Below are positions 33,669 to 64,000 of a DNA stretch of 64,000 nucleotides, in pieces. Source of the stretch: Pseudoflavonifractor sp. Marseille-P3106 (GTDB lineage: Bacteria > Bacillota > Clostridia > Oscillospirales > Oscillospiraceae); contig LT827125.1 in assembly GCA_900169975.1 (NCBI GenBank), positions 124,001 to 188,000 on the forward strand, given 5' to 3'. Made by a program: the position numbers and the translations under genes. Every line of letters begins with the position of its first letter. The stretch's first letter is position 1. Below the pieces are notes generated by a model. That model was not told where the DNA came from and did no database searches. It worked only from the letters and a program-made list of their open reading frames with translations.

Positions 33669-33789
33669 GTTACATCGCTCCTTGCCTTTGTTACAGATTG
33701 TAACCAAATTGTAACCGATGGAAAGAGCTGTTTCAAGGAACAATGTTTTCCAGTGATGTACCGCCGCCGGAAGGCGGCGGGGGGAGCGG

Positions 33790-37218: not shown

Positions 37219-37294
37219 GGGAGCATAGCTCAGCTGGTAGAGCGCACGCCTTACACGCGTGATGTCACAGGTTCGAGCCCTGTTGTTCCCACCA
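37219..37294 (+). tRNA. tRNA-Val (anticodon TAC)
   Basis: Full cloverleaf: acceptor GGGAGCA with TGTTCCC, anticodon stem CACGC/GCGTG with loop CTTACAC, T-arm GGTTCGAGCC and encoded CCA. Confidence 0.97.
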
Positions 37295-37319
37295 GACCTG
37301 TTTTATAGGCGACCAAGCT

Positions 37320-37396
<77 letters not shown>

Positions 37397-37402
37397 AAAT
37401 TT

Positions 37403-37478
37403 GCCTCTGTAGCTCAGTCGGTAGAGCAGGGGACTGAAAATCCCCGTGTCACTGGTTCGATTCCGGTCGGAGGCACCA
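37403..37478 (+). tRNA. tRNA-Phe (anticodon GAA)
   Basis: Acceptor GCCTCTG with CGGAGGC, anticodon stem GGGGA/TCCCC around CTGAAAA, encoded CCA. Confidence 0.97.
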
Positions 37479-37482
37479 CACC

Positions 37483-37515
37483 TGTTCTCCCGGGACAAAA
37501 CATCCCGGGAGAACA
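37483..37515 (+). repeat. 13-bp perfect hairpin between tRNA-Phe and tRNA-Gly
   Basis: TGTTCTCCCGGGA (37483-37495), seven-base loop, TCCCGGGAGAACA (37503-37515). No T-run follows, so it is not an ordinary terminator; it may be an RNA-processing or pause structure. Confidence 0.75.
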
Positions 37516-37555
37516 CCCCGTCGGGGTACTGTTTCACTGGAGCCCTGCATAAGAT

Positions 37556-37631
37556 GCAGGTGTAGCTCATCTGGTAGAGCGCCACCTTGCCAAGGTGGAG
37601 GTAGCGAGTTCGAGCCTCGTCACCTGCTCCA
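37556..37631 (+). tRNA. tRNA-Gly (anticodon GCC)
   Basis: Acceptor GCAGGTG with CACCTGC, anticodon stem CCACC/GGTGG around TTGCCAA, encoded CCA. Confidence 0.97.
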
Positions 37632-37645
37632 TAGATCCTTTGTCC

Positions 37646-37719
<74 letters not shown>

Positions 37720-37758
37720 AAAAAGAAGCACCTGCTTTGCAGGTGTTTCTTTTTTGGA
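37720..37758 (+). terminator. Terminator of the tRNA cluster
   Basis: AAGCACCTGC followed by TTT and GCAGGTGTTT, then CTTTTTT; strong stem with A-run before and T-run after. Confidence 0.88.
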
Positions 37759-37781
37759 TACCTGGGAATTTTAAAATGCTC

Positions 37782-37945
37782 GGCGGAAATGAATTCCGCC
37801 TGCGCCGAGGTTTTGGCCGCAGGCCAAAACGCTCGTACGGCGCAAAAGCGCCGCCCCACCGTGTGGGGTCCCGATCTTGTCCGGCATCTAAAGTGTTCGG
37901 ACAAGACAAAAAAAGAGAGTCATCTTTTGATGACTCTCTTTTTTT
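37782..37945. other. Array of six consecutive hairpins, last one a terminator
   Basis: GGCGGAA/TTCCGCC (37782-37800), GTTTTGGCC/GGCCAAAAC (37810-37830), CGGCGC/GCGCCG (37838-37853), CCCCAC/GTGGGG (37854-37868), CTTGTCCG/CGGACAAG (37876-37905) and an A-run/T-run terminator GAGAGTCATC/GATGACTCTC (37915-37938). No reading frame explains it. Confidence 0.7.
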
Positions 37946-37957
37946 GCGCCGTGGGAA

Positions 37958-38485
37958 TCATTCGGTGCCCAGATATTTCTCAAGACACACCAGCCGGACA
38001 CCGGGAATGACGTTGAAGGTGCAGGGCAGGACGGCGGCCTTCCGATGGCCCAGACGCCGATAGAGGCTCCGGGCGGGGGTGTTGCGCTCGTTGGTGTCCA
38101 TGCGGAGAAAAGGGCATCTGCTTTCCCGGGCGAACCGCTCGTAAAAATCCACAAAGCGGGCGCCTTATCCCGCTCCTGCGGTCCTGGGATCCACCACCAG
38201 CGTGTGGAGGACCATCACCTGTTCAGCCGGGGCCTCGTACTGCCAGGGACACTGGGCGTATACATCCACTTGCGCCCGGTTGATCCGGGCTGCGGCCGCC
38301 ACGGAACCTGATTCCTCCATGACATAGAGCTCATCCTGCTCCAGAGCCTCCCTGGCGGTGCGGGCGGTGGGGTAGACCCCGGGCTGCCAGCCGGTGAAGG
38401 CGCGTCCGGTTATCTCATTTTCCAGGATGCGGCCGTAGATCTCCGCCACCTGTGGGATGTCCTCTTCTCTTGCTTTTCGGATCAT
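37958..38485 (-). pseudogene. GNAT N-acetyltransferase broken by one in-frame stop
   Basis: The reading frame encodes a GNAT acetyltransferase: IRKAREEDIPQVAEIYGRIL at the start, VLHTLVVDPRTAGAG at the acetyl-CoA loop, then TAA (38165-38167), and continues in the same frame with GARFVDFYERFARE and LRMDTNERNTPARSLYRRLG to the normal end at 37958. The stop stands exactly where GAGYG or GKGIG is expected, so a single base change of a Tyr codon explains it. The start at 38485 has GCGAGGAT upstream. Either a young pseudogene or a base-calling error. Confidence 0.85.
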
Positions 38486-38694
38486 ATCCTCGCCCTCTTT
38501 CAAACAAACAGTTTAAGTGACAAGTACAGCGATTGAACCAATAGAATACACCAAACAGACGAAACAAGCAAGAAAAAGGCACATCCTCTTCTGTTTTCCC
38601 CGCAGGGCGCATACCCCTTAGTGAGTCCTGAAAAGCCGGCAGCCGGACGCAGGCCGGGGTGTAAAAGGAAAAGCAATCAGGGGAGGCGTTGTCC

Positions 38695-40243
38695 GTGCTG
38701 GAGCGGTGGGCGGATCGGTTGTGGAATCCGTGGATGCTGGGGCTATTTCTGCTGGTGGGGCTGTGGTGCTCCGCAGAGAGCGGTTTCTTTCAAATTTTCG
38801 GGATCAAGACCTGGCTCCGCGGGTCTCTGGGCACTCTCTTTCGAAAAAAGAAAAAAGCCGCCTCCGGCGGCTTGACCCAATTTCAGGCCCTTTCCACCGC
38901 ACTGGCCTCCACCATCGGCACGGGTTCCATTGCGGGCGTGGCGACGGCCATCTTTTTCGGCGGGCCGGGGGCGGTCTTTTGGATGTGGATCTCCGCCCTG
39001 CTGGGGCTGATGACCAGCTTTGCGGAAAAGACGCTGGCGGTCAAATACCGGCGAAAAGCCCCGGGGGGCGGCTGGGAGGGCGGTCCCATGGACTACATGG
39101 AGCGGGCGCTGGGCTGGAGAGGCGCCGCGAAGTGGTTTTCCTTCTGGTGTGTTCCGGCGGCGCTGGCGGGGGGCGGTATGGTCCAGTCCAATTCCATCGC
39201 TTCCGCCCTCCATGCTGCGCTGGGCTGGGAGCCGCTGGCGGTGGGGGTGGTGACGGCCCTGTGCACAGGCTGTCTCTTATCCACCTCTGACGCTGCCGCC
39301 GAAGGCTTAAGGCTAGCTCTCGGTGGACCGTGTGGCGTTCAGAAAACATGACGCTAGACTGATATCAGCTCATCTCCGTCACTCCTTCCGCGCGTCGATG
39401 TCCTGAGTACCCAGGTCTCCTCGCTGGGGAGGGGGGGCGGTCATCCTGGGGGGGATCGGCCGGGTGGGACGGGTGAGTGAGAAGCTGGTCCCCGCCATGG
39501 CGGTCCTGTTTCTCAGTACCGGGATGGCGGTGATCTGGGCCCATGCGGAGTCGGTACTGCCGGCTCTCCGGGAGATCGTGACCTGCGCACTGACGCCCCG
39601 GGCGGCGCTGGGCGGTGCGTCGGGCTATACGGTGTCCGCCGCTCTGCGCTACGGAGTGGCCCGGGGCGTGTTCACCAATGAGGCCGGGGTGGGCTCCTCC
39701 GCCATGGCCCATGCCGCCGCGGACGCTGACTTTCCCGCCCAGGAGGGGTTCTGGGGCATATTTGAGGTGTTTTTTGCGACGATGGTGGTCTGCACAGTCA
39801 CCGCGCTGACCATCCTCACCTCCGGGGTGTACGATCCCGCCGCGGCGCTGTCCGCTCTGGAGCAGGGGACAGTGACGGGGGAGATGACCGGCGCACCTCT
39901 CTCGGCCGCCGCCTTTTCCACTGTGTTTGGTCAGGCGGGAGGACTCATTGTGGCGGTGTGCCTGCTGCTGTTTGCCTTTACCTCTCTGCTGGGGTGGAGC
40001 TATTACGGAGAGCGGGGGCTGGCCCATCTCACCGGGGACAACCGCCTGCGCAGGCCCTTCCGGCTGGTGTTCCTGTTGGCGGTGGCAGCGGGCAGCGTGG
40101 GAGAGGTGGGCGCGGTTTGGGCTCTCTCCGATCTATGTGACGGCCTGATGGCCCTGCCCAACCTGCTGGCAGTGGCCATCCTCGCGCCCCAAGCCCGACG
40201 GGAGATGACCCCTTCCGGCTTGAAAAGGCGGAAGGCTCGATAG
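38695..40243 (+). pseudogene. AGCS family alanine/sodium symporter, interrupted by a foreign 166-base segment
   Basis: Residues from the GTG at 38695 (GGGGAGG eight bases upstream) to 39270 and again from about 39437 to 40243 together form one complete Na+/alanine (or glycine) symporter of about 460 residues with ten or eleven membrane helices: STALASTIGTGSIAGVATAI, GGPMDYMERALG, then EKLVPAMAVLFL, TNEAGVGSSAMAHAAA and the end. Joining VTALCTG directly to AVILGGIGRVGRV gives the family sequence without loss. The gene is therefore probably intact in the organism and broken only by the inserted adapter-like bases. Confidence 0.88.
39270..39436 (+). other. Sequencing adapter (Nextera-type) read-through, probable assembly artefact
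   Basis: From 39270 the bases read CTGTCTCTTATCCACCTCTG, then ACGCTGCCGCCGA; the Nextera transposase read-through adapter is the same with A in place of three C. Next come eight index-like bases AGGCTTAA (39303-39310) and GGCTAGCTCTCGGTGG, close to the i5-side continuation ending in GATCTCGGTGG. After 39340 the sequence is unrecognisable until the symporter frame resumes near 39437. Confidence 0.9.
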
Positions 40244-46188: not shown

Positions 46189-46743
46189 ATGCTGAGCGCG
46201 CTGGCCCAGGCCGAGGGGCCGAGCCTTTTGTGGATCCAGGAGACGGTGCGGTGCGCCCTGCTGGATCCGCTCATGATGTTATATACCCAGCTCGGCAACG
46301 CCGGGCTGTTGTGGATCGCCCTGTGTGTGCTGATGCTCTTTTTTCCCAAAACCCGGAAAGCCGGGTTGGCGGGGGCGGCGGCACTGCTGTGCAGCCTGTT
46401 GTGCACCAATGTGGTTCTGAAGCATTTGGTGAGCCGGACCCGCCCCTGGCTGGTGGTGGAGGGGCTTATTCCGCTGGTGGCAGAGGGAGATCCCAACTCC
46501 TTTCCTTCGGGCCACACCAGCGCCGCCTTCGCCGCGGCGATGGCCTGGCGGCAGATGCTGCCGGAGAAGTGGATGGGCCGGACGGCCCTGGGAATGGCGG
46601 CCCTTATGGGAGTGTCCCGACTGTACGTTGGCGTCCACTTTCCCAGCGATGTGCTCTGCGGCATGCTGGTGGGGCTTTTCTGCGGCTGGGCGGGCTGCCG
46701 CCTGTACCGGCTGTGGGAAGAACGGAGACCGTGGGAGCGGTAG
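46189..46743 (+). CDS. PAP2 family lipid phosphatase
   Basis: 184 residues, five or six membrane helices. The three phosphatase signatures are complete: KHLVSRTRPW (KX6RP), PSGHTSA and SRLYVGVHFPSD. Such enzymes dephosphorylate undecaprenyl pyrophosphate, phosphatidylglycerophosphate or phosphatidate at the outer face. AAGGGGGG precedes the ATG at 46189. Downstream of DUF4330 but behind its terminator. Confidence 0.9.
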   Translation: MLSALAQAEGPSLLWIQETVRCALLDPLMMLYTQLGNAGLLWIALCVLMLFFPKTRKAGLAGAAALLCSLLCTNVVLKHLVSRTRPWLVVEGLIPLVAEGDPNSFPSGHTSAAFAAAMAWRQMLPEKWMGRTALGMAALMGVSRLYVGVHFPSDVLCGMLVGLFCGWAGCRLYRLWEERRPWER

Positions 46744-46834
46744 GCTTGCGCCACCTGTTGCGCCACCCGATAACCAATTTTGGCCTATTTCTGCCGGTGA
46801 TTTCTCGGTTTGTTTCGGCGAAAAAGAGAACGAA

Positions 46835-46878
46835 AAGCCTCGCAGCCCTTTGTGCATCAAGGGCTGCGGGGCTTTTTT
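46835..46878 (+). terminator. Terminator after the PAP2 gene
   Basis: AAGCCTCGCAGCCCTT (46835-46850) pairs with AAGGGCTGCGGGGCTT (46859-46874) with one G-U pair, then TTTT. The 115 bases from here to the catalase remnant show no gene. Confidence 0.85.
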
Positions 46879-46994
46879 GCTTGTTCTATGCTGGCAAAAA
46901 GATGCACCCATTCCGGCCCTGCGGCGCGGGGGCTTGTGGAAAAAGAAAATTGACAAAGCAGAAGAGATATTGGACGGACGGCGTTTGACCGTTT

Positions 46995-47258
46995 TTATTT
47001 TGTATGCTCAGATGCGGCCGCTTCGTTTCCAGCGAAAGCATTGGGGCCAGGATTGGACAGGGGAAAATACATCTTCGCCGCCTTGGCCGTACCGAAGTCC
47101 TGATTGAAACCGCTGTCCTGTACCTCATGAAAAGCATCCCGGAGCATCTGGTTGTGCGCCTCCTCACGGTTGAGCAGGAATTCGATGATCTTCCGTGTCC
47201 TTTTCTCCTCGATCTGGCGGCAGAGATAGGCCATAGACCACCATGTCCTTTGTTTCAT
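46995..47258 (-). pseudogene. Truncated manganese catalase (CotJC-like) remnant
   Basis: Eighty-seven residues matching only the C-terminal part of di-manganese catalases: KIIEFLLNREEAHNQMLRDA, then FNQDFGTAKAAKMYFPLSNPG. Full-length proteins are about 190-290 residues and begin with ferritin-like helices that carry the other Mn ligands; these are missing upstream and no matching frame continues past 47258. The remnant marks the left edge of the accessory region. Confidence 0.75.
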
Positions 47259-47298
47259 AACTCGAACATATAGCGATTCCTCTCAAAATTCACATTTT

Positions 47299-47328
47299 TT
47301 GTTCCGCAATGGCCGTTTATGGTATAAT
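47299..47328 (+). promoter_or_regulatory. Promoter of the M20 peptidase gene
   Basis: TTGTTC (47299-47304), 18 bases, TATAAT (47323-47328). The leader of about 130 bases shows no obvious ORF or terminator. Confidence 0.6.
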
Positions 47329-47464
47329 AAGTGCAGGGGAAACGGCGAAAGTCAAAGAAGATCCTTGTACTTGGAGGACAGCCATATATCGATACTGTTG
47401 ACGCCTCCAACATCTCTTGCTACACTTTTTCTAAACAACTCATTCTTTTTATGGAGGTACGGCT

Positions 47465-48664
47465 ATGGACTACTATAAGCGGGCGCTGGAACTGCGGGAG
47501 GAAACAATCTCTCACCGCCGCTGGCTGCACAGCCATGCGGAGGTGGGGCTGCAAATGCCCAAGGCACAGCAGTATGTGATGGAGCAGCTAAAAAACTGCG
47601 GCCTGTCCCCCCGTCCTTGCGGCCATGGTGTGACCGCCGAATTGGGGATGGAAGAGGGAAGGACGCTCCTGCTCCGGGCGGACATGGATGCGCTGCCCAT
47701 GCCGGAGGAGAGCGGCGAGAGTTTCGCCTGTCCCACCGGTACCGAAGCCCATGCCTGCGGCCACGACTTCCACGCGGCCATGCTGCTGACAGCGGCAAAG
47801 ATGCTCAAAGAGGATGAGGCCGCGCTGAGAGGCCGGGTCCGGCTGATGTTTCAGCCTGCGGAGGAGACTTTTGAAGGCGCCAGGGATATGGTATCCAACG
47901 GAATCTTGGATGGTGTGGATGCGGCTCTTGCCTGCCATGTGGCCCCAGGCAGAATGCCGGTTGGCCTGTTCATGTATAACAGCGGCGGGACAATGATGTT
48001 CTCCGTGGATGGTTTTCGCATCACGGTTCGCGGCAAGGGCGCCCATGGCGCCTATCCACAGGATTCAGTCGATCCCATCAATATTGGTGTTCACATCTAT
48101 CTGGCGCTGGAGTCCCTGATCGCACGGGAGGCGGACCCCGGCAAAGCCTGTGTCCTGACGATCGGAAACTTCTCTGCCGGGTCAGCGCCCAACATTATTC
48201 CCGATACTGCAATTCTCCAGGGAACGCTGCGCACCAATGACCGTGATAGCCGGGAGAAGCTGGTTCGCCGGATCAGAGAGGTATCCCAAAAGACCGCGGA
48301 GGTCTATGGCGGTGCGGCGGAAATCATGACGCTCTCCGAGGTGCCCCCTCTCATCTGTGACCCCGGAATGACGGAACAGGCTGTTCGCTATGTGAAAGAA
48401 CTGCCGATTTCCGGACTGACCCCGGTTCCCGATATGTCCGCCAGCGCTTCCGAGGACTTCGCTGTTATAGCGGAAAGAGTTCCCAGCACATTCCTGTATC
48501 TCTCTGCCGGATACCTGGATGAACGGGGTGACGCACCTGCGCACAATCCAAGAGTTCGTTTCAATGAGGAGGTGTGTCCAATCGGTTCCGCTTGCCTGGC
48601 GCACTGCGCCTCCCGCTGGCTGGAGGAAAATCAGTATGAAAGCGCTGTTTTACCACAACATTAA
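47465..48664 (+). CDS. M20 family metallo-amidohydrolase
   Basis: 399 residues of the M20D group (hippurate hydrolase, N-acyl-amino acid deacylase, IAA-amino acid hydrolase). Metal and catalytic residues: LLRADMDALPM, ACGHDFHAAMLL, FQPAEETFEGA and a C-terminal AHNPRVRF. A dimerisation lid domain (about 180-295) sits inside. It splits N-acyl or peptide bonds of small substrates in the cytoplasm. GGAGG lies before the ATG at 47465. Downstream is the TetR gene of the oleate-hydratase unit, 49 bases away. Confidence 0.9.
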   Translation: MDYYKRALELREETISHRRWLHSHAEVGLQMPKAQQYVMEQLKNCGLSPRPCGHGVTAELGMEEGRTLLLRADMDALPMPEESGESFACPTGTEAHACGHDFHAAMLLTAAKMLKEDEAALRGRVRLMFQPAEETFEGARDMVSNGILDGVDAALACHVAPGRMPVGLFMYNSGGTMMFSVDGFRITVRGKGAHGAYPQDSVDPINIGVHIYLALESLIAREADPGKACVLTIGNFSAGSAPNIIPDTAILQGTLRTNDRDSREKLVRRIREVSQKTAEVYGGAAEIMTLSEVPPLICDPGMTEQAVRYVKELPISGLTPVPDMSASASEDFAVIAERVPSTFLYLSAGYLDERGDAPAHNPRVRFNEEVCPIGSACLAHCASRWLEENQYESAVLPQH

Positions 48665-48713
48665 CGCAGACAGCTTTTCTGCGGAGAATATGCTAATAGG
48701 AGGTGGAGGGAAC

Positions 48714-49295
48714 ATGTCTCAAACTACGAAGTGGGCGCTGGCCATGTCGCTGCAACGTGTCATGGCGCAAAAACCTTTATCCAAAATTACCATTGCTGAC
48801 ATCACCCAAGACTGTGGCATTAACCGCATGACTTTCTATTATCACTTCCAAGACATCTTTGATCTCATTGACTGGATTTGTCAGGAGGAAGGTGCCAAAG
48901 CCATTCAAGGCCGGAAGGGTTATGAAACCTGGCAGGATGGCTTTATTGCCTTATGCCATGCAATGATAAAGAATAGGGCCTTCGTGGAAGGCGTTTATCA
49001 TTCGGTCCAACGGGAACAAATCGAAAATTACCTTTTCCGCGTGGTCTACGATCTGCTGCTCGATGTGGTGTGTGAATTATCCGAGGGTTACTCTATTTCT
49101 CATGAGAACCAGCGATACATTACGAATTTCTATAAATTTGGATTTGTAGGCGTTGTGTTGGAATGGGTCAAGAATGGAATGAATGAGGCTCCGGAAGCAA
49201 TGGTGGAACGCGTTAGTCAAATGATGCACGGCCAGTTGCTTTTGGCCATCCAGAACATGGACAGCAACCCGATCTTATCAAACAAGCCCCATTGA
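48714..49295 (+). CDS. TetR/AcrR family regulator (DhaS-like C-terminal domain)
   Basis: 193 residues. N-terminal HTH: SLQRVMAQKPLSKITIADIT, then CGINRMTFYYHFQDIFDLID; the C-terminal part resembles the TetR_C group found in DhaS-like regulators (YKFGFVGVVLEWVKNGMNE). AGGAGG lies ahead of the ATG at 48714. It directly precedes the oleate-hydratase operon in the same direction and is the obvious candidate for its fatty-acid-responsive repressor; this is inferred from position. Confidence 0.85.
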   Translation: MSQTTKWALAMSLQRVMAQKPLSKITIADITQDCGINRMTFYYHFQDIFDLIDWICQEEGAKAIQGRKGYETWQDGFIALCHAMIKNRAFVEGVYHSVQREQIENYLFRVVYDLLLDVVCELSEGYSISHENQRYITNFYKFGFVGVVLEWVKNGMNEAPEAMVERVSQMMHGQLLLAIQNMDSNPILSNKPH

Positions 49296-49307
49296 TAAAA
49301 TATTTTA
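49296..49307. promoter_or_regulatory. 12-bp palindrome upstream of oleate hydratase (candidate operator)
   Basis: TAAAATATTTTA is a perfect palindrome just after the tetR stop; it extends imperfectly to TGATAAAATATTTTACA. A related half-site TGTAAAATTT lies over the -10 region of the oleate hydratase promoter. Confidence 0.4.
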
Positions 49308-49308
49308 C

Positions 49309-49351
49309 AAAGCACTCCGGATGATGGAACTTCCATCATCCGGAGTGCTTT
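49309..49351 (+). terminator. Terminator-like hairpin after tetR
   Basis: GCACTCCGGATGATGGAA (49312-49329) pairs perfectly with TTCCATCATCCGGAGTGC (49331-49348); T-rich bases follow (TTTGTTTATT). Confidence 0.75.
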
Positions 49352-49356
49352 GTTTA

Positions 49357-49385
49357 TTGTGGGAATTTGTAAAATTTCATAGAAT
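49357..49385 (+). promoter_or_regulatory. Promoter of the oleate hydratase operon
   Basis: TTGTGG (49357-49362), 17 bases, TAGAAT (49380-49385), about 35 bases before the start codon. The tetR terminator lies immediately upstream, so the operon needs its own promoter. Confidence 0.55.
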
Positions 49386-49419
49386 GAAGTCAAAGAAACC
49401 GCAAAGGAGGCTGTTGAAC

Positions 49420-51195
49420 ATGTATTATTCCAGCGGAAACTATGAGGCTTTCGTTCGGCCTCTCAAGCCGGAGGGCGTGGAGCGGAAATCCGCCTACATT
49501 GTTGGAACCGGCCTGGCCGCCCTGACCGCCGCCTGTTATCTGGTGAGAGACGGGCAGATGCCGGGGAAGCGCATTCATATTTTTGAAAAGGACCCCATTC
49601 CAGGCGGAGCTTGTGATGGATGGGATTACTCCGGCCTGGGCTATGTAATGCGGGGCGGCCGTGAGATGGACAACCATTTTGAAGTGATGTGGGATCTATT
49701 CCACTCCATTCCCTCTATCGAAACCCCTGCCCTCAGCGTCTTGGATGAATACTACTATTTGAACAAGCGTGACCCAAACTACTCTCTCATGCGGGCAACT
49801 CAAAACCGGGGCGAGGATGGCCACACCGACGGCAAGTTTGGCCTCTCTGATGCAGGAGCCCTGGAAATCATGAAGCTCTTTTTTACGCCTGATGAGGAAC
49901 TCTATGACAAGCCCATCACCGACTATTTTAGCGGCGAGGTGCTGAATTCTAACTTCTGGCTTTATTGGCGCACGATGTTTGCCTTTGAAAACTGGCACAG
50001 CGCCCTGGAAATGAAACTCTATATCCGCCGCTACATCCACCATATCGGCGGTCTGCCCGACTTCAAGGCCCTGCGTTTCACCCGCTATAACCAGTATGAG
50101 TCCATGATCCTGCCCATGATCAAATATTTGGAGGCTGCCGGTGTACAGTTCCACTACAATACAAAAGTTCTTGATATAAAGTTTGATATCCAGCCCGATC
50201 GGAAACTGGCACGGCGCATTACTTTGCTGTTTGACAGCGGAGAAGAGCAAGTGGATCTCACAGAACAGGATTTGGTCTTTATCACACCGGGCGGCTGCGT
50301 AGAGAACTCCGCATTGGGCTCACAGAACACCCCGGCGGCCTACAGCCCGGAATTGAAGGAGGGCGGCGGCTGGGATATGTGGAAGCGGATCGCTGCCCAG
50401 GATCCTGCCTTCGGTCACCCTGAAAAATTCTGCGGCGACCCGGAAAAGAGCAACTGGATGAGTGCCACCGTTACTACCCTGGATGAAAAGATCCCGCCCT
50501 ACATCCAAAAAATCTGCCAACGGAACCCCTTCAGCGGGCGAGTAGTCACCGGGGGTATCGTTACGGCAAAGGATTCCAACTGGCTTCTGAGCTGGACCTT
50601 CAACCGTCAGCCTCAGTTCCGCAGTCAGCCCAAAGGGCAGCTGGTAGGCTGGATCTACGGCCTGTTCAGCGATCGGCCGGGGAACTATGTGAAGAAACCC
50701 ATGCGGGAGTGCACCGGCAAGGAGATCTGCATGGAGTGGCTTTACCACATGGGCGTCCCTGAGGAGGAAATTGAATCCCTGGCTGAGCACAGCGCCAATA
50801 CCGTTCCCTGCATGATGCCTTACATTACGGCCTTTTTTATGCCCCGTGCAGCGGGAGACCGACCGAATGTCGTGCCGGAGGGCGCCATTAATTTCGCCTT
50901 TATCGGCCAGTTTGCGGAAACGCCCCGGGATACCATCTTTACCACTGAGTATTCCATGCGCACCGGCATGGAGGCAGTCTATACCCTGCTGAAAATTGAC
51001 CGGGGCGTACCGGAAGTCTGGGGCAGCGTATATGATATTCGGGATCTGCTCAACGCCACGGTAAAGCTGAGAGACGGCAAGAAAATCACGGACATGCATC
51101 TGGGCTTGAAGGAGAGAATGGCCCTGAAGGAAGTCCTTAAGAAAATCTCCGGTACGGATGTGGAAAAGCTGCTGAAAGAATACCATGTCATCTGA
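49420..51195 (+). CDS. ohyA: Oleate hydratase (myosin-cross-reactive antigen family)
   Basis: 591 residues. FAD-binding Rossmann segment AYIVGTGLAALTAACYLVRD (about residues 24-43) and EKDPIPGGACDGWD; further family hallmarks are RGGREMDNHFEVMWDLF, FRFTRYNQYESM-type sequence, NSNFWLYWRTMFAFENWHSA and RPNVVPEGAINFAFIGQFAE. The enzyme adds water to the cis-9 double bond of unsaturated fatty acids giving 10-hydroxy acids, a detoxification and host-signalling reaction known in gut bacteria. AAAGGAGG precedes the ATG at 49420. First gene of an operon of lipid-related genes. Confidence 0.95.
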   Translation: MYYSSGNYEAFVRPLKPEGVERKSAYIVGTGLAALTAACYLVRDGQMPGKRIHIFEKDPIPGGACDGWDYSGLGYVMRGGREMDNHFEVMWDLFHSIPSIETPALSVLDEYYYLNKRDPNYSLMRATQNRGEDGHTDGKFGLSDAGALEIMKLFFTPDEELYDKPITDYFSGEVLNSNFWLYWRTMFAFENWHSALEMKLYIRRYIHHIGGLPDFKALRFTRYNQYESMILPMIKYLEAAGVQFHYNTKVLDIKFDIQPDRKLARRITLLFDSGEEQVDLTEQDLVFITPGGCVENSALGSQNTPAAYSPELKEGGGWDMWKRIAAQDPAFGHPEKFCGDPEKSNWMSATVTTLDEKIPPYIQKICQRNPFSGRVVTGGIVTAKDSNWLLSWTFNRQPQFRSQPKGQLVGWIYGLFSDRPGNYVKKPMRECTGKEICMEWLYHMGVPEEEIESLAEHSANTVPCMMPYITAFFMPRAAGDRPNVVPEGAINFAFIGQFAETPRDTIFTTEYSMRTGMEAVYTLLKIDRGVPEVWGSVYDIRDLLNATVKLRDGKKITDMHLGLKERMALKEVLKKISGTDVEKLLKEYHVI

Positions 51196-51339
51196 TCCGT
51201 AGCATATATCGTTCAATCTGGTTGTATGTAACAGCAGTCCTTGCCTGTCATATAACGAGATGCGTGAAATGCGTCGTTGCGAAACATAAAGATGACATCA
51301 ATCGAAACATGCAATTTGAAACTTCGAAAGGAGAAAAAG

Positions 51340-52689
51340 ATGGACTTTTCTATGCAGATGAAAAAAACAGCTCTGCGCACTGCGCTGGGCTACATAGAGA
51401 AAAACCCGGAAGAAAATGTGCTCAAGCTTATGGACTGGGTGGATAAACTGGCTGGAGACGGCCCCAGCAGCTTTCCTGCTCAGCGGGCGGCGTTTCGGAA
51501 TATTCTGAATGATCCGGAATGCAGCATGTACCAGCTCATCATAAGCGTGTTCCGGGATATCGACAACGATGTTCTGAAAGCCGTCTTTGAGAACTTCTTC
51601 CTCAATGCGAGTCTCATCGGCTGGCCGAAACAGGAGCAGTATCGGAAGGAACTGGGGTGTAATATTCCCTGGGCAATTCTCATGGATCCCACTTCCGCCT
51701 GCAATCTCCACTGCACCGGCTGCTGGGCCGCCGAATACGGCAACAAGCTGAATCTCACCTATGAGGAACTCAGTGATATCATCCGGCAGGGGAAAGAATT
51801 TGGAACCTATATGTATATCTTCTCCGGCGGCGAACCGCTGGTGCGCAAGAAGGATATTCTGCGGTTGTGTACCGAGCACAGCGACTGTCAGTTCCTTGCC
51901 TTCACAAACGCCACCCTGATCGACGAGGATTTTGCAAAGGAAATGCTGCGGGTAAAAAACTTTATTCCCGCCATCAGTGTGGAAGGCTTTGAGGAGGCCA
52001 CCGACTTCCGCCGCGGCAAAGGCACCTATCAGGCCATTATGGAGGCAATGACCATTCTCAAGAAGCACAAGTTGCCCTTTGGCGCGTCCTGCTGCTACAC
52101 ATCCAAAAATGTGGATTCCATCAGTTCGGAGGCATTTATTGACCACTTGGTAGACTGCGGCGCCAAGTTCGCTTGGTTCTTCCACTACATGCCGGTCGGG
52201 AATGAGGCAGTTACCGACCTGCTGCCAGACCCGGAGCAGCGCAAGCTCATGTACCGTAAAGTGCGGGAGTACCGCTCCACCAAACCGATCTTCACCATCG
52301 ACTTTCAGAATGATGGAGAGTATGTGCGTGGCTGCATTGCCGGAGGCCGCAACTACCTGCACATCAACGCCAACGGCGATGTGGAACCCTGCGCCTTCAT
52401 TCACTACTCCGACTCAAACATCCGGGAAAAGTCTCTGCTGGAGGCATTCCAGTCCCCTCTGTTCATGGCCTACCACAATCATCAGCCCTTCAACTGTAAC
52501 CATCTGCGGCCCTGTCCTATGCTGGAAAACCCGGAGATGTTGAAGATGATGGTACGTCAGTCCGGCGCCCATTCCACAGACCTCCAGTCCCCGGAGAGCG
52601 CTGACCATTTGTGTGATAAGTGCCGGGATTATGCCGCTTGCTGGGCCCCGGAAGCAGAACGGCTGTGGCAGAACAAAAAAAGTAAGTAG
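51340..52689 (+). CDS. Radical SAM enzyme with SPASM-like C-terminus
   Basis: 449 residues. An about 100-residue helical N-terminal extension precedes the radical SAM core, whose cluster motif is CNLHCTGC (Cys121, 125, 128), with IFSGGEPLVRKK after it. A C-terminal cysteine-rich part, CIAGGRNYLHINANGDVEPC plus C...C and CDKCRDYAAC, should hold extra Fe-S clusters. The TSACNLHCTGCW style resembles enzymes of the HpnH and lipid/peptide-modifying groups; the substrate is unknown. SD AAAGGAG. It follows ohyA by 144 bases. Confidence 0.85.
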   Translation: MDFSMQMKKTALRTALGYIEKNPEENVLKLMDWVDKLAGDGPSSFPAQRAAFRNILNDPECSMYQLIISVFRDIDNDVLKAVFENFFLNASLIGWPKQEQYRKELGCNIPWAILMDPTSACNLHCTGCWAAEYGNKLNLTYEELSDIIRQGKEFGTYMYIFSGGEPLVRKKDILRLCTEHSDCQFLAFTNATLIDEDFAKEMLRVKNFIPAISVEGFEEATDFRRGKGTYQAIMEAMTILKKHKLPFGASCCYTSKNVDSISSEAFIDHLVDCGAKFAWFFHYMPVGNEAVTDLLPDPEQRKLMYRKVREYRSTKPIFTIDFQNDGEYVRGCIAGGRNYLHINANGDVEPCAFIHYSDSNIREKSLLEAFQSPLFMAYHNHQPFNCNHLRPCPMLENPEMLKMMVRQSGAHSTDLQSPESADHLCDKCRDYAACWAPEAERLWQNKKSK

Positions 52690-52870
52690 CGATCCAAAAG
52701 GTTGCCCCTGACAGAGCAAGCCGTCGGAATTTCTGTTTGAGGCAGAGATCCGGCGGCTTTTCCATGAGCGATGGGCTTTATGACAACGGCCATCCGCACT
52801 CTGTTTGCTCTCAACTGAAAGGTTTTTGAAGCGCACCAGATAACAACGATTTATATTTTGAGGTGCCCCC

Positions 52871-53941
52871 ATGGGAAAAAGACTGTCCCAAAAGAAAAAA
52901 ATTGCTTTTTCTGCAGCTCTCAGTCTATTGACATTGCTGGTCTTGTTTTGGTTGGTTTTCCGAAATCACTACAAGGAGATTTTGCATAATATCTACGCGG
53001 CCAGCACAGGAGGATTGGTATGGATCCTTATCATGGGGCTTGCCTATCCGTTATTGGAAAGTATGATTTGCCGTGTATTAGTAAAAAGGAAAATCAAGAG
53101 TTTTTCTTTTCGGCAGGCTCTAGAAGTCACATTGTTAGGCGTATTCGGAAATGTAGCGACCTTATCCGTGGGCTCCCTCCCCATGCAAAGCGCATATCTG
53201 CATCGCCGGGGCATGGCTCTGGGAGAAGCGGCTGGGATCATGAGTATGGAATATGTTCTTCATAAATCCTCCGTTTTGCTTTGCGGCGGGATTTTGCTTC
53301 TCCTGGGGGGACAAGATATTTTTCAGAGACACCAAAATCTACTTCCATATATTTTATTTGGCTATCTCGTGTGCATTGCTATTATTGTATTGCTGATTTT
53401 GGTATGCACATGGAAACGCTTCTACCAGTTGACCTGCAAAGGGATTCTGCAATTAGGAAAAGTCCCGGAGTGGACTGTGCGTGCCGATCGTTTAAAACTG
53501 CAAGCAGACGCACTGTATGTCGGAGCCAGAGATTTACTGCACGCTCCAAAAGCAATTTGGGCCAGCGTGGGTATCAATGCCCTGAAGCTGCTGTCTCTTT
53601 ATTCCGTTCCTTACCTATGTGCAGAAGCGATTGGACTGAATGACCTATCGTTCATTCAAGTACAGGTATTGTCTGCATTGACCCATGTTATTTCAAATGC
53701 TCTGCCCAATATAGCGGGAATGGGCTCGGTAGAAGCAGCCTTCCTACTGCTTTTTTCCCAGTATATGAACCCGGCAGATGCATCTTCTGTACTGATTCTT
53801 TATCGCCTTTCCACCTACTTTGTACCATTTCTGATCAGTGCATTTGTGACAGAAAAAATTGGGCTGCGCTTGTGTGCAGCGGATGGTTCCGGAGTGTTCC
53901 AAAGCACATCAGATCAGGAGGAAAAGCATGGAATATCCTAA
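52871..53941 (+). CDS. LPG-synthase-TM (UPF0104)-like membrane protein, flippase type
   Basis: 356 residues with about eight membrane helices. It matches the N-terminal flippase domain of MprF (lysylphosphatidylglycerol synthase TM, PF03706; YbhN family) without any synthase domain: LGVFGNVATLSVGSLPMQSA, ALTHVISNALPNIAGMGSVE and SVLILYRLSTYFVPFLISAF. Likely role: moves a lipid across the membrane. GAGGTG precedes the ATG. Its last codons overlap the first DegV gene, indicating coupling. Confidence 0.8.
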   Translation: MGKRLSQKKKIAFSAALSLLTLLVLFWLVFRNHYKEILHNIYAASTGGLVWILIMGLAYPLLESMICRVLVKRKIKSFSFRQALEVTLLGVFGNVATLSVGSLPMQSAYLHRRGMALGEAAGIMSMEYVLHKSSVLLCGGILLLLGGQDIFQRHQNLLPYILFGYLVCIAIIVLLILVCTWKRFYQLTCKGILQLGKVPEWTVRADRLKLQADALYVGARDLLHAPKAIWASVGINALKLLSLYSVPYLCAEAIGLNDLSFIQVQVLSALTHVISNALPNIAGMGSVEAAFLLLFSQYMNPADASSVLILYRLSTYFVPFLISAFVTEKIGLRLCAADGSGVFQSTSDQEEKHGIS

Positions 53942-54682
53942 TTTAACAGAGCGGGAATCCAGAGAACTACAAGAATATCTCTCTACGCATCAGGATGACT
54001 TGCTTACACATATCGTTCAATTTAATGAATTGATGCGGCAATATCAAATCGTTGCCGATGCGGCACCTGATTTGACGGATTCTCGTCCGGTTTGTCCGGT
54101 ATGTATCAAAACGCTTGTATGGCTGCCGAAATGCTTTCCGAACAATACCCTCAGCGCAAGATCCGATGTGTGGACACTCTTTGTGCAGCTCCCGGAGAAG
54201 GCTTCCTGGTTTTGGAAGCAGCCAAAAGGCAACGTGATGGGGTCTCTCTGGATGACTTGGCTGATTGGGTAGAACAGCATCGCCTTCAGGTTTGCCATTG
54301 GTTTACAGTGGATGGCCTATCCTATCTGCATGGAGGAGGCCGCGTATCCACCGCCGCGGCAGTTACCTGCACTGCATTGCAGATCAAGCCATTGCTGCGA
54401 GTGGATAACACTGGAAAACTGGAGTTTACAGGAAAATCACGAGGCAATAAACACGCACTGCTGGAACTGCTTGACAAAATGGAACAGCAGTGGACTCCCC
54501 GAATTTCTGATTCCGTAGCTATAGCCTACAGTGGGGATTATGATCGGATCAAGCCGCTTTGGGATGCAGTGACCTCACGGTTTCCCAAAGCCCAATGCTA
54601 TACAGCTTCCGTTGGTCCTGTGATTGGTGCCCACACCGGGCCGGGACTGCTGGCGCTGGTATATTGGGGGAGGCAGCGGTAA
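53928..54682 (+). pseudogene. DegV/FakB-like fatty-acid-binding protein with internal deletion and frameshift
   Basis: The first frame (ATG 53928, AGGAGG upstream) gives about 50 residues up to QIVADAAPDLTD; a second frame resumes with SSGLSGMYQNACMAAEMLSE near 54083 and runs to 54682 with LHGGGRVSTAAA and GPVIGAHTGPGLLALVYWG, the DegV lipid-pocket and C-terminal motifs. About 60-70 residues that normally lie between these parts are absent and the frames do not match, so it is not functional as read. DegV proteins bind single fatty acids and hand them to FakA. Confidence 0.75.
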
Positions 54683-54703
54683 GTCGAGATTTGGAGGAAA
54701 AAG

Positions 54704-55591
54704 ATGAGCGAATACATACTCAGCTGCGAATCAACAGTAGATTTAACGAAAGCGCATCTTGAAAAAAGAAAAATTTTCTATATCGGCTACCCCTATGAGC
54801 TGAACGGCCAATTTTATCAAGACGATTTAGGAGAGACAATTCCTCTGAAGGATTTTTACCATGCAATGGAGCAAGGCGCTGATATCAAAACTGCCCAGAT
54901 CAATGCCTATGAGTTTACCCGGTACTTTGAAGGGTTCCTTGCGGATGGCAAAGATGTGCTGCACCTTTGCTTGTCGTCAGGCATTACAGGGGTGCTAAAT
55001 GCCGCGCGGATGGCAAAAGCTGAGTTGGAGGAAAAATATCCTGACCGGCATATCTATCTTGTGGATTCTTTAGCTGCCTCCGCAGGCAGCGGACTTCTGA
55101 TGGAACGACTGGCCGATTTACGGGATGAAGGAATGAGCATTGAGCGGTTATGGCAGTGGGTACAAGGAAATAAACTTCGCGTCAACCACTGGTTTTTCTC
55201 CAGTGACCTAAAATATTATATCCGGGGCGGAAGAATCTCGAAAACTGCCGGAACGGCAGGGACCATGCTGGGGATCTGCCCTTTGCTGGACATAAACGCC
55301 GATGGACGGCTGATCCCTCGGGAAAAGATCAGAGGAACAAAACGGGCCATTTTGGCTTTGAACGATAAAATGCGTCTACTGGCAGACAAAGGTCAAAATT
55401 ATGATCAAGCCTGCTTTGTTGCGCATGCTGGTTGCCCGGAACTCGCAATGCGGACGGCTGAACTGCTGAATCAGAATTTTCCTTGCATACCTGGCGGTGT
55501 TCGGGTTTATCAGATCGGCACAATTATTGGCGCACATACCGGTCCTGGCACAGTGGCGTTGTTCTTTTGGGGCAAGGACCGCAAGTACTGA
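54704..55591 (+). CDS. DegV family fatty-acid-binding protein
   Basis: 295 residues of the DegV/FakB fold. N-terminal lobe with ILSCESTVDLTKAHLEKRKI, the serine-containing loop LCLSSGITGVLNAARMAKAE, YYIRGGRISKTAGTAGTMLG and the end IGTIIGAHTGPGTVALFFWG. FakB-type proteins bind exogenous fatty acids for phosphorylation by FakA (not encoded here). GGAGG precedes the ATG at 54704. Together with the broken copy upstream it is a tandem duplication. Confidence 0.9.
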   Translation: MSEYILSCESTVDLTKAHLEKRKIFYIGYPYELNGQFYQDDLGETIPLKDFYHAMEQGADIKTAQINAYEFTRYFEGFLADGKDVLHLCLSSGITGVLNAARMAKAELEEKYPDRHIYLVDSLAASAGSGLLMERLADLRDEGMSIERLWQWVQGNKLRVNHWFFSSDLKYYIRGGRISKTAGTAGTMLGICPLLDINADGRLIPREKIRGTKRAILALNDKMRLLADKGQNYDQACFVAHAGCPELAMRTAELLNQNFPCIPGGVRVYQIGTIIGAHTGPGTVALFFWGKDRKY

Positions 55592-55605
55592 ATGGGGTAA
55601 TTGTT

Positions 55606-55725
55606 ATGGGGGAAAATAATGCTTTGGTGAAATTTGAAAAGCGGTGCCCCAACTGCCCGATCTATATGTTCAGTCATAGTATGGGAATGCTCGCAGCAAG
55701 AAATATCTCAAACGATATGATTTGA
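55606..55725 (+). pseudogene. Fragment of an alpha/beta hydrolase (nucleophile elbow)
   Basis: Thirty-nine residues from an ATG at 55606, including PIYMFSHSMGMLAARNI, which matches the nucleophile elbow (SHSMG) of lysophospholipase/monoacylglycerol-lipase-type hydrolases. Nothing before or after it completes the enzyme, so it is a gene scrap at the right end of the lipid operon. The 230 bases after it (55726-55956) hold no gene that I can see. Confidence 0.5.
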
Positions 55726-55956
55726 ATTATCCAAGCGGATTCTTTGTGTTCCACCAACTGAAAATCCATCGGTTTACCTTGCAATCATAATAGCCCAAAT
55801 ATCAAAAAAGAGGAATGGCGAGCTGCACAGAAACCACTTTTTGAATCAACTGGCAAACAGTTCTCAATGAAAAGGGCAGAAGAGAAGTATATCAGGGGGA
55901 TTAAACTTCTTTTCATAGCTTTATTCGCTTTCTTTCGTCATTTCTTGAAAAATGTA

Positions 55957-55986
55957 AAAACGCCGCACAAAAGTGCGGCGTTTTCG
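55957..55986 (-). terminator. Terminator of the second tRNA cluster
   Basis: AAAACGCCGCAC (55957-55968), AAAA, GTGCGGCGTTTT (55973-55984): perfect stem with T-rich exit on both strands. Confidence 0.88.
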
Positions 55987-56013
55987 CTGTGCATCTTTTT
56001 TGTCTGCACATTT

Positions 56014-58727: not shown

Positions 58728-58828
58728 GGGTCTCACCTCCACTCCATCCTATGACGGAAGCCCGGGATTTTGACTTGCGAGTTTTTCTCCACCGAGATAT
58801 AATGGGGAAAAAGGAGTGGTTCTTGTCG

Positions 58829-60740: not shown

Positions 60741-61274
60741 ATGAGGCTTTTTTTCGGCCTGCCCTTTGACGCGGAAACCTGCGCCGCCGTCCGGCGGGTC
60801 CAGAGCCGGCTGGAGGAATGCGCCCAGCGGGGGAGATTCACAGATCCGGGCAATTTTCACCTTACGCTGGCGTTTCTGGGAGAGGTGGAGGAGGAGCGCC
60901 TGAAGACGCTGGGGACCATCCTGCGTGAAAATCCGATCCCGCCGATCGATCTGCTCTTTGACCGGCTGGGGCAGTTTGGAGGCGGGATCTGTTACTTGGC
61001 GCCCAGGACCTGCCCGACGCTTTTGAAGGGGCAGGCGGCGTTGGAGTCCGCACTTCGCAGGGCTGGATTCGAGCTGGAGGAGCGGCTTTATACGCCTCAT
61101 TTGACTTTGGGGCGAAAAGTCGTTTTTTCGGCAGGCAAGGACTTGTCGGGGTCACTGGAGCCGCCTGTCCCGGCGCACTCCTCCGGCGCGGCGCTGTTTC
61201 ACTCCCATCGGGTGGGAGGTTGCCTGCGCTACACCAGGCTGGAGCCGGACTTCCGCTCTGAACCGGACGCATGA
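60741..61274 (+). CDS. thpR: RNA 2',3'-cyclic phosphodiesterase ThpR
   Basis: 177 residues of the 2H phosphoesterase (LigT) family, beginning MRLFFGLPFDAETC. Both HxTx motifs are present: NFHLTLAFLG (about residue 38) and YTPHLTLGRK (about residue 119). It opens 2',3'-cyclic phosphates at RNA ends. It starts one base after the GIY-YIG stop and is coupled with it. Confidence 0.92.
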   Translation: MRLFFGLPFDAETCAAVRRVQSRLEECAQRGRFTDPGNFHLTLAFLGEVEEERLKTLGTILRENPIPPIDLLFDRLGQFGGGICYLAPRTCPTLLKGQAALESALRRAGFELEERLYTPHLTLGRKVVFSAGKDLSGSLEPPVPAHSSGAALFHSHRVGGCLRYTRLEPDFRSEPDA

Positions 61275-61276
61275 GA

Positions 61277-61312
61277 AAAATGGCGGGTCCCTGGGGGGAC
61301 CCGCCATTTTAT
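61277..61312 (+). terminator. Terminator after thpR
   Basis: AAAATGGCGGGTCC (61277-61290) pairs with GGACCCGCCATTTT (61297-61310), followed by AT-rich bases; also usable from the opposite strand. Confidence 0.88.
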
Positions 61313-61400
61313 TTGGGCGGAAAAGGCGGGATGATCATAATAATCCGCTGTGAAAAGCAAGGGCCTTCCAAGTCCGGGCGGCTCTGCGCGCCTTTGACGC

Positions 61401-62729
61401 TCAGGATCGTGCCTGCCCCAGGATCCCGTACTCCTGACCCATAAAAATGTGGTCGTAGGTCTCATCGCGCCCGGACGGAGCGGTGATCTGGAAGTTTGCT
61501 TCCTTTTGAAAAATGATGACAAAGTCACTGCCGCCAAAAAGGAAATATCCAAGCGCGTCGCCCTTTTTCACTGTGGCCCCCACCTTTACCGTGTCCTCGA
61601 AGTTCACAGAGGATACCTGAGACATGCCGATGGGGAGCAGTGCAACAAGCCCGTAATCTTCCGTCTGCATGATGACACAGTCCCGCGTCTCTATCATCTG
61701 CCAGCCGGGAGTCTCGGCGTTGAGAATATAACTGCCGCTTTCCTCATCCCATGTCACATAACCGCCTACGGCATCGTCCTGAGGAATATGGGTGACTTCG
61801 AGGATCGTTCCGCTGACCGGGAAGTGGTATCGATGGTAGTCGTGGACGTCGAGGAAGGTGTGTGTGAGAACTCCGCCCCCAAAGGCGTCCTTATATTTGC
61901 TGTTTGGTCCTATGAGTGCTGCGATGGAATCAAACTCGCGGGATTTGATCAGCGCTTTGTCATTGGCTTTTTGTACGATCATGGAATTTTCATCTATCTG
62001 CCATACCCCCTGCGGAGTGGAGTCGGCAGGCGAAACCACCACGCTGTTATCTCCCACGGCGGCTATGGGGCGCTGATCGGTCGAGGAGAGACGCCGTGAG
62101 AAAAACTCATTGAAGGTGGTCCAGTTATCCGGCGACTCATACCAGTCGGTTTGCAGGCCGAAGCGCTCATCGGCGTAGGCCAGCTGATAGTATTCCTCGT
62201 TCCATGATTCTGGGGTGCTCAGATACTCGCCCCACGCCCGAGTGAACTCTATGAGCCACGAACGGTAAGGTTCCGCATATTGTAAGGAGTTGTTGTAAAG
62301 ACCCTGCCCCTCCAGTTCATCAAGAGGCTGGTCGTTGATAAAGTAGAAATAATTCAGCGATTGGTCGATCTTTTCATACAGGCCCTCTGCCTTCACATTT
62401 TTTGAGATGTTCCACGGCATTGCGGTGCAGGCCCAGTCGATATAATCGTAATATTCCTCCAGAGACTGCGCTGGATTTGTCAATGGATCTGGATTGATCT
62501 TCTTGGCTGCGTCTATGCTTTTTTGAAGCAGGTTTTTTACGTTCGGGTTTTCCTCCAGAATTTTAATAAGCCTTTGAGTCATTTCCGCTCTGGCGGGCGC
62601 TGCGGTTGGCATGGAAGAAACTGCTGCCGTGGGAGTCGGCGTTACCTGGGAGCTGCCGCAGGCAGACAGGCAGAGTATCAGTGAGAGAGATAAAATCAAA
62701 GCGGTCGGACGTCTATGGAAAGCTGACAT
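61401..62729 (-). CDS. Lipoprotein with phosphatidylserine-decarboxylase-like domain
   Basis: 442 residues. Signal peptide with lipobox LSAC and Cys24, a Thr/Pro/Ala linker (about 28-50), a helical domain (about 50-205) and then a PS-decarboxylase-type fold: FNEFFSRRL, VVVSPADSTPQGVW, FLDVHDYHRYHFPVSG and the C-terminal GYFLFGGSDFVIIFQ, where the self-cleaving LGST/GSST serine is kept as GGSD. Ordinary PSDs are membrane-bound inner-face enzymes; this one should be a lipid-anchored outer-face protein. AGGAGG is nine bases before the ATG at 62729. Confidence 0.8.
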   Translation of the reverse strand: MSAFHRRPTALILSLSLILCLSACGSSQVTPTPTAAVSSMPTAAPARAEMTQRLIKILEENPNVKNLLQKSIDAAKKINPDPLTNPAQSLEEYYDYIDWACTAMPWNISKNVKAEGLYEKIDQSLNYFYFINDQPLDELEGQGLYNNSLQYAEPYRSWLIEFTRAWGEYLSTPESWNEEYYQLAYADERFGLQTDWYESPDNWTTFNEFFSRRLSSTDQRPIAAVGDNSVVVSPADSTPQGVWQIDENSMIVQKANDKALIKSREFDSIAALIGPNSKYKDAFGGGVLTHTFLDVHDYHRYHFPVSGTILEVTHIPQDDAVGGYVTWDEESGSYILNAETPGWQMIETRDCVIMQTEDYGLVALLPIGMSQVSSVNFEDTVKVGATVKKGDALGYFLFGGSDFVIIFQKEANFQITAPSGRDETYDHIFMGQEYGILGQARS

Positions 62730-62903
62730 TATGGTTCCTCCTCGGTGCGTCATAGTATCGGCTAGTTTTCCCGGTCCGGTGAAGGATATACGTAATAACA
62801 GATGGGTTTCAGTTGGAATGTGACGGGGAGGCTGGTTGCTCTGCGAAGATCAGGGTCAGCGCAAAAAAATCCCGAAACGCTGATTGATCAACGTTTCGGG
62901 AAA

Positions 62904-62994
62904 TGGCGGAGAAGGAGGGATTTGAACCCTCGCGACGGTTTCCCGCCCTACTCCCTTAGCAGGGGAGCCCCTTCGGCCACTTGGGTACTTCTCC
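62904..62994 (-). tRNA. tRNA-Ser (anticodon GCT)
   Basis: 91 bases with a long variable arm; acceptor GGAGAAG with CTTCTCC, anticodon GCT between CCCCT and AGGG, encoded CCA. Confidence 0.95.
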
Positions 62995-63030
62995 AAGCCG
63001 AATCTGTCTGTGCACCTGAGCGAAAAATCG

Positions 63031-63117
63031 TGGCGGAGAGAGTGGGATTCGAACCCACGGCTCTTGCGAGTCACCAGTTTTCAAGACTGGCTCCTTAAAC
63101 CACTCGGACATCTCTCC
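63031..63117 (-). tRNA. tRNA-Ser (anticodon TGA)
   Basis: 87 bases with a long variable arm; acceptor GGAGAGA with TCTCTCC, anticodon stem CCAGT/ACTGG around CTTGAAA, encoded CCA. Confidence 0.95.
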
Positions 63118-63157
63118 ATGCCTGTCCTCAATGAAAGATCGATCAGATGCGAAAGTT

Positions 63158-63186
63158 ATAATAACATATTTTGAGACCGCTGTCAA
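63158..63186 (-). promoter_or_regulatory. Promoter of the tRNA-Ser pair
   Basis: Minus strand TTGACA (63181-63186), 17 bases, TATTAT (63158-63163). Confidence 0.85.
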
Positions 63187-63239
63187 CTGCAAACCGGGGG
63201 AGAATTCCCCATATTTTTTGCCTTATGGTCTAAAAACCC

Positions 63240-63268
63240 TTGCAAATTATGTGCATATGGGGTAAAAT
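63240..63268 (+). promoter_or_regulatory. Promoter of efp
   Basis: TTGCAA (63240-63245), 17 bases, TAAAAT (63263-63268), about 45 bases before the efp start. Confidence 0.75.
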
Positions 63269-63314
63269 ATCTTCGCATGATTTTATGAAATCAAATTTTG
63301 GAGGATGAATACCA

Positions 63315-63884
63315 ATGCCTACGATTACTGCCAGTGAATTCCGCAACGGCGTGACTTTTGAGATGGACGGTCAGGTCATGCAGGTGGTCGAGTTCCAGCA
63401 CGTCAAGCCCGGCAAGGGCGCTGCCTTTGTGCGGACCAAGATGAAGAATGTCCTCAGCGGCGGCGTGACTGAGACCTCGTTCAACCCCACTGCCAAGTTT
63501 GAGAGCGCCTATATTGAGCGCAAGGACGCCCAATACAGCTACAACGACGGCGACCTGTATTATTTTATGGACCAGGAGACTTTCGACATGGTTCCCGTGT
63601 CCAAAAAGGATCTGCCCGACGGTTTTGCGTTCGTTAAGGAAGAGACCGTCTGCAAGCTGATGATTTACAAGGAGAAGGTCGTGGGCGTTGAAGCCCCTAA
63701 CTTTGTGGAGTTGGAGATCACCGAGACCGATCCCGGCTTCCGGGGCGATACGGCCACCAACGTCACCAAGCCTGCCACCGTGGAGACCGGCGCCGAGATC
63801 AAGGTGCCTTTGTTCATCAACCCCGGCGACCGCATCAAGATTGACACTCGCACCGGAGAGTATCTGGAGCGCTGCAAGGGCTGA
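63315..63884 (+). CDS. efp: Translation elongation factor P
   Basis: 189 residues in three beta-barrel domains; it begins [20 protein letters not shown] and the loop [11 protein letters not shown] holds the conserved tip residue Lys (about residue 32), with the C-terminal signature [20 protein letters not shown]. It relieves ribosome stalling at polyproline. GGAGGA precedes the ATG at 63315. No modification genes (epmA, ymfI) are in the window. Confidence 0.97.
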
Positions 63885-64000
63885 GAATCAGCCGGCCGGA
63901 ATCCCGTTTGGGCGGCGGGGAGACCCGCCCTACCGCGAGGCCACGGCGAATGTGGCTGAAAGTCGGGCCCTGAAAGGCCCGCCGCTGAAAGGAGTTTACT
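63885..64000 (+). other. Right end, beginning of a gene outside the window
   Basis: About 115 bases without a gene, including GGCCC hairpin arms at 63967-63980 and ending in GAAAGGAGTTTACT, a ribosome-binding site for a gene that starts just beyond the edge. Confidence 0.5.

Follow-up and report, generated by a model that had tools for sequence, protein, structure and literature searches.

A left-over Nextera adapter as the very probable cause of an apparently broken agcS gene in a Pseudoflavonifractor assembly

Is the agcS gene of this Pseudoflavonifractor genome a genuine pseudogene, or did it come to be broken only when the genome was assembled? The question is raised by the window, a 64-kb stretch of DNA (G000:C19:124001-188000) from an assembly of 3.12 Mb in 20 contigs, where a member of the alanine/glycine:cation symporter family is encoded on the plus strand in two pieces that lie in different frames. 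The 5' part (38689-39270, frame 1) corresponds to positions 1-174 of TIGR00835 and 3-143 of PF01235, and the 3' part (39437-40243, frame 2) takes up the same profiles at positions 179-420 and 147-376 (full profile lengths being 424 and 392 positions, respectively). Each half scores above the PF01235 cut-off and, taken alone, below the whole-protein cut-off of TIGR00835. As assembled, the first frame stops at 39349-39351, i.e. within the 166-base segment that separates the two halves. Comparison of sequences leads us to regard this segment, with close to full confidence, as an assembly artefact made up of left-over Nextera adapter and an unreadable read end. Since 166 equals 1 modulo 3, the segment is sufficient on its own to change the agcS frame.

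The first 33 bases of the segment (39270-39302) match CTGTCTCTTATACACATCTGACGCTGCCGACGA, the Nextera read-2 trimming sequence (the read-2-side read-through adapter), at 30 positions. When up to three mismatches are allowed, this is the single match in the window, and 100 dinucleotide shuffles yielded none. Base 39270, a C, fits both the adapter and agcS, and the left boundary is therefore ambiguous by one base. Within this match, 39270-39288 on the plus strand constitute the 19-bp Nextera transposon mosaic end (17/19 bases) and 39289-39302 the rest of the read-1 transposase adapter in reverse complement (13/14 bases to GACGCTGCCGACGA, as the sequence is printed in an excerpt of PMC3906532). 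They are followed on the same strand by eight bases, AGGCTTAA (39303-39310), that agree at seven positions with the reverse complement of the i5 index S508, and thereafter by a degraded P5 flow-cell end (39311-39339) with 19/29 bases in register. The S508 index, like the N706 index considered below, is as given in the primer list excerpted from PMC7757419. The identity of the adapter and the order of its parts are directly observed. A 70-base adapter incorporating S508 aligns with 56/70 bases without gaps, and the next best place on either strand of the window reaches 37/70. Taken alone, the P5 part is not significant: its 19/29 is the chance level, being equalled at 41648, and it counts solely because it lies in register with the adapter and the index.

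These results bear unevenly on an earlier note made from the sequence, which had recognized an adapter from 39270 with errors only of the A-to-C type, an index-like octamer one mismatch from an i5 reverse complement, and a degraded flow-cell end. The adapter and the octamer stand as claimed; the flow-cell end has 19/29 bases in register with them and by itself is no better than the chance place just mentioned. The error type holds for the first 33 bases (3/3 mismatches) but not over the 70-base adapter, where A-to-C changes make up 4 of the 14 mismatches. The errors instead rise along the segment, from 3/33 in the first part through 1/8 in the index to 10/29 in the P5 end.

Beyond the adapter, 39340-39359 (plus strand; 9/20 A in register) is probably run-off, read beyond the molecule's end, and 39360-39436 on the same strand is an unreadable tail. 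The flank and phage comparisons described below gave no clear source for the bases from 39340 onwards, which might speak for an insertion or pseudogene of natural origin whose likeness to an adapter is due to chance. However, under a simple base-composition model the first 33 bases alone have a chance expectation of about 7e-9 on both strands of 3.1 Mb, the genome holds further adapter sites, and extra bases at the junction occur in none of 38 homologous loci (see below); we accordingly give this explanation practically no weight.

The mosaic end, which is the end sequence of the Tn5 transposase, raises the further issue of whether a real Tn5-type transposon inserted into agcS, in vivo or in the laboratory, or left a scar there. 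The 17 of 19 mosaic-end bases would be in keeping with this. Transposition of this kind should leave a pair of inverted ends and duplicate 9 bp of the target, but the window of 64 kb holds one mosaic end alone at up to three mismatches, and there is no 9-bp target duplication (1/9 bases equal). Moreover, the mosaic end leads into the read-1 adapter, an index and P5, all of them synthetic, and elsewhere in the assembly there are sites with this index again or with the adapter of the other side. With a single end and the target duplication absent, we reject a real Tn5 insertion as exceedingly improbable.

The relatives of agcS provide a further view of the junction. The three closest named relatives, recovered with the symporter protein at 72-80% identity, are metagenome bins labelled Oscillospiraceae or Pseudoflavonifractor. 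The second half of the gene was matched in all 16 genus genomes, the present one included: in 14 of the others the homologue shows 73-83% identity and an open frame of 456-738 aa with no internal stop, and the genome G014 has a 42% homologue alone. When the two halves were searched apart, they were directly observed to adjoin each other, with not one extra base between them, in 38/38 relative loci. The genus search supplied 19 of these loci (L003-L021) and a wider contig search the other 19, out of 80 (L030-L048); three records occur in both sets, leaving 35 distinct, one is the second agcS homologue of the present genome, and 14 of the 38 are congeneric orthologues. A stop was encountered in one of the 76 half-alignments, that of the 42% homologue (L017). 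The earlier note's claim that excision of the 166 bases restores the symporter frame holds, and the result is the arrangement found in every one of these loci. Its claim that the gene is broken by the assembly and not by biology is likewise supported by the absence of the segment from the relatives and by further adapter relics that lie inside contigs and share the i5 index; on this sequence evidence, agcS appears broken solely through assembly.

Indeed, the case for an artefact is stronger than that note could have known, because the same assembly holds other adapter relics in the interior of its contigs. At up to three mismatches the mosaic end occurs eight times in the genome, as against two for a reversed control. 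A BLAST search of the genome with the i5-side 70-mer recovered the agcS site (E 3e-14), C18:84358 (5e-12) and C16:139665 (2e-10), after which came two matches at E 1.2. The corresponding i7-side 66-mer recovered C13:111228 (E 6e-14), with weak matches at C17:22445 (E 0.1, unclear) and at the mosaic end of the agcS site (E 2). The relic at C18:84358 (L027, locus position 1501) carries the index AGGCTTAG, an exact (8/8) reverse complement of S508, so that the index read with one mismatch in agcS is present there without error. In the relic at C16:139665 (L022, with 139716 at locus position 1501) the index aligns as AGGCGTAG, 7/8 to S508, and is followed by P5 and a run of A. The relic at C13:111227 (L025, locus position 1501) is of the i7-side adapter, with TAGGCATT matching the N706 primer index in reverse complement at 7/8 bases, after which come a degraded P7 end and AAAA. 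The presence of adapter at several sites and the index common to the i5-side sites are direct observations, and all four sites (agcS, C18, C16 and C13) are interior to contigs. With their consistent i5/i7 indices, these at least three further relics point to one library, approximately N706/S508, that was assembled without full trimming; a single library with one index pair would explain all four sites. The gene that follows the adapter at C13 matches spoIIP; we make no claim of a gene interruption there, because the 160 aa before the adapter match no NCBIfam family.

Further relics may be present at four weaker mosaic-end matches, C16:20945, C17:22450, C18:325561 and C19:201605, which are left uncounted; for the first of them the i7-side alignment scores 37, whereas 300 shuffles reached at most 25. 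At C19:201605 (L029, about positions 1469-1545 of the locus) a degraded mosaic end is flanked left and right by one and the same genomic stretch, at least 14 bases long, which looks as though the assembler had duplicated the sequence around the adapter. The C16 copy was missed by the 33-base i5-side pattern at three mismatches and the C13 copy by the 34-base i7-side pattern at the same limit, both being found by the shorter mosaic end and by BLAST. Strict adapter screens would therefore miss such copies.

We propose the following course of events for the agcS site. A short Nextera fragment of agcS would have terminated at 39270, and the sequencer would have continued beyond it, reading first the transposase adapter, next the i5 index (S508) and the P5 end, and finally running off the molecule as errors accumulated. 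Trimming having been incomplete, the assembler or a gap-closer would have retained this read end and joined it at 39437 to the right-hand half of agcS; positions 39340-39436 would then be noise from past the end of the molecule. Certain features count against reading the segment as an artefact: the right-hand junction at 39437 loses zero bases relative to the relatives, a tidy outcome for a blind join; the four flank comparisons gave no explanation for the final 77 bases (39360-39436), the best of them being equalled by 26 of 500 shuffles; and the P5 part alone is at the level of chance. The same neat join, which costs no agcS base, and the direct passage of the noise tail into good sequence would favour a chimeric library molecule, formed by PCR or by a join during clustering, in which the adapter truly lies between the agcS halves in the reads. 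This too would be an artefact; nonetheless, errors that rise along the segment resemble the end of a read and not its middle, and we consider such a chimera very improbable, attributing the join to the assembler. The adapter part is certain under either course. There is also a very small chance that 39340-39436 is real DNA which a chimeric library molecule picked up from the strain or from some other template, in which event agcS would be altered in life too.

A source for the tail was sought in several places. A degraded copy of the flanks was dropped as a candidate for 39360-39436, which bears no clear similarity to either of them: in four comparisons an equally good score was reached by 69, 404, 446 and 26 of 500 shuffles. 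Against phage records, 39340-39436 gave two matches at E 0.3, neither convincing. The whole segment matched eight PLSDB plasmid records (H3-H10; five from Klebsiella and three from Enterococcus), where the best places, among the matches listed, all start at the adapter end of the segment. These plasmid records possibly contain contamination of a like kind.

The earlier note had also cast doubt on single-base breaks elsewhere in the window. This is reasonable, although neither of the two further breaks seen is demonstrably an error. The screen for breaks was made against five 20-kb stretches (100 kb) of the congener G008, to which about 32.6 kb of the window aligned, some paralogue, antisense and tRNA matches included; the regions 640-21380, 46730-51340, 52670-56000 and 61260-64000 gave no or weak matches and thus lie outside the screen. 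One other clear break emerged from it, an in-frame TAA at 38165-38167 on the minus strand, in a gene beside agcS and about 1.1 kb from the adapter segment, where G008 has a Tyr. This gene looks acetyltransferase-like by eye, neither piece matching Pfam. Of 14 congener loci searched, two yielded both parts of the gene, and both are open at this site; the TAA may be an error or real. On inspection alone, apparent frame changes relative to G008 near 33685, 60480 and 26760, together with a stop at 58752, were dismissed as probably due to open frames that overlap or are antisense.

The second break, recognized from a family search and congener comparison, is a change of frame at a run of eight G (9169-9176, plus strand) in a MATE transporter, with matE positions 1-202 before the run and 222-391 after it in another frame. 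In 10/10 congener loci the gene crosses this point in a single frame, and the aligned parts are free of stops. An earlier count had found stops in six of the ten congener matches; these probably lie upstream of the true start, because there are none in the aligned parts and the query was longer there. The frame break itself may be a sequencing or assembly error or a real slippage. Elsewhere in the window, five tRNA genes at 37219-37716 (Rfam) are overlapped by a long minus-strand open frame (37355-37909), which is probably spurious.

Recognition of the segment for what it very probably is keeps an amino-acid symporter from being miscalled as a pseudogene, and it flags an assembly that scores 99% complete as holding untrimmed adapter inside contigs at no fewer than four places. 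The case is an ordinary artefact, and its value is a practical one for curation and genome quality control.

In a sample of 400 family genomes, taken from a larger group and comprising the present one, the i5-side adapter was found at up to three mismatches in three (this genome, G134 and G306) and the i7-side adapter also in three (G060, G306 and G322), the C13 copy of the present genome being too degraded for this limit. The genome G306 stands out with 71 i5-side (34 + 37) and 75 i7-side (37 + 38) matches; the 20 matches listed are all exact, and several of them begin no more than about 50 bases from the start of a contig. It resembles the present genome in that the same adapter sequences remain in the genome record, whereas the copies described here are interior and degraded, unlike those listed for G306. 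The closest known counterpart is the read-through adapter of Nextera and Nextera XT libraries, as described in the excerpt of PMC3906532: the trimming sequence for read 2 is the same, as is the orientation of a read leaving a short fragment, and that description likewise has a run of As after the adapter. In contrast to the read ends of that description, the agcS copy lies inside an assembled contig, carries errors and is followed by about 77 unreadable bases.
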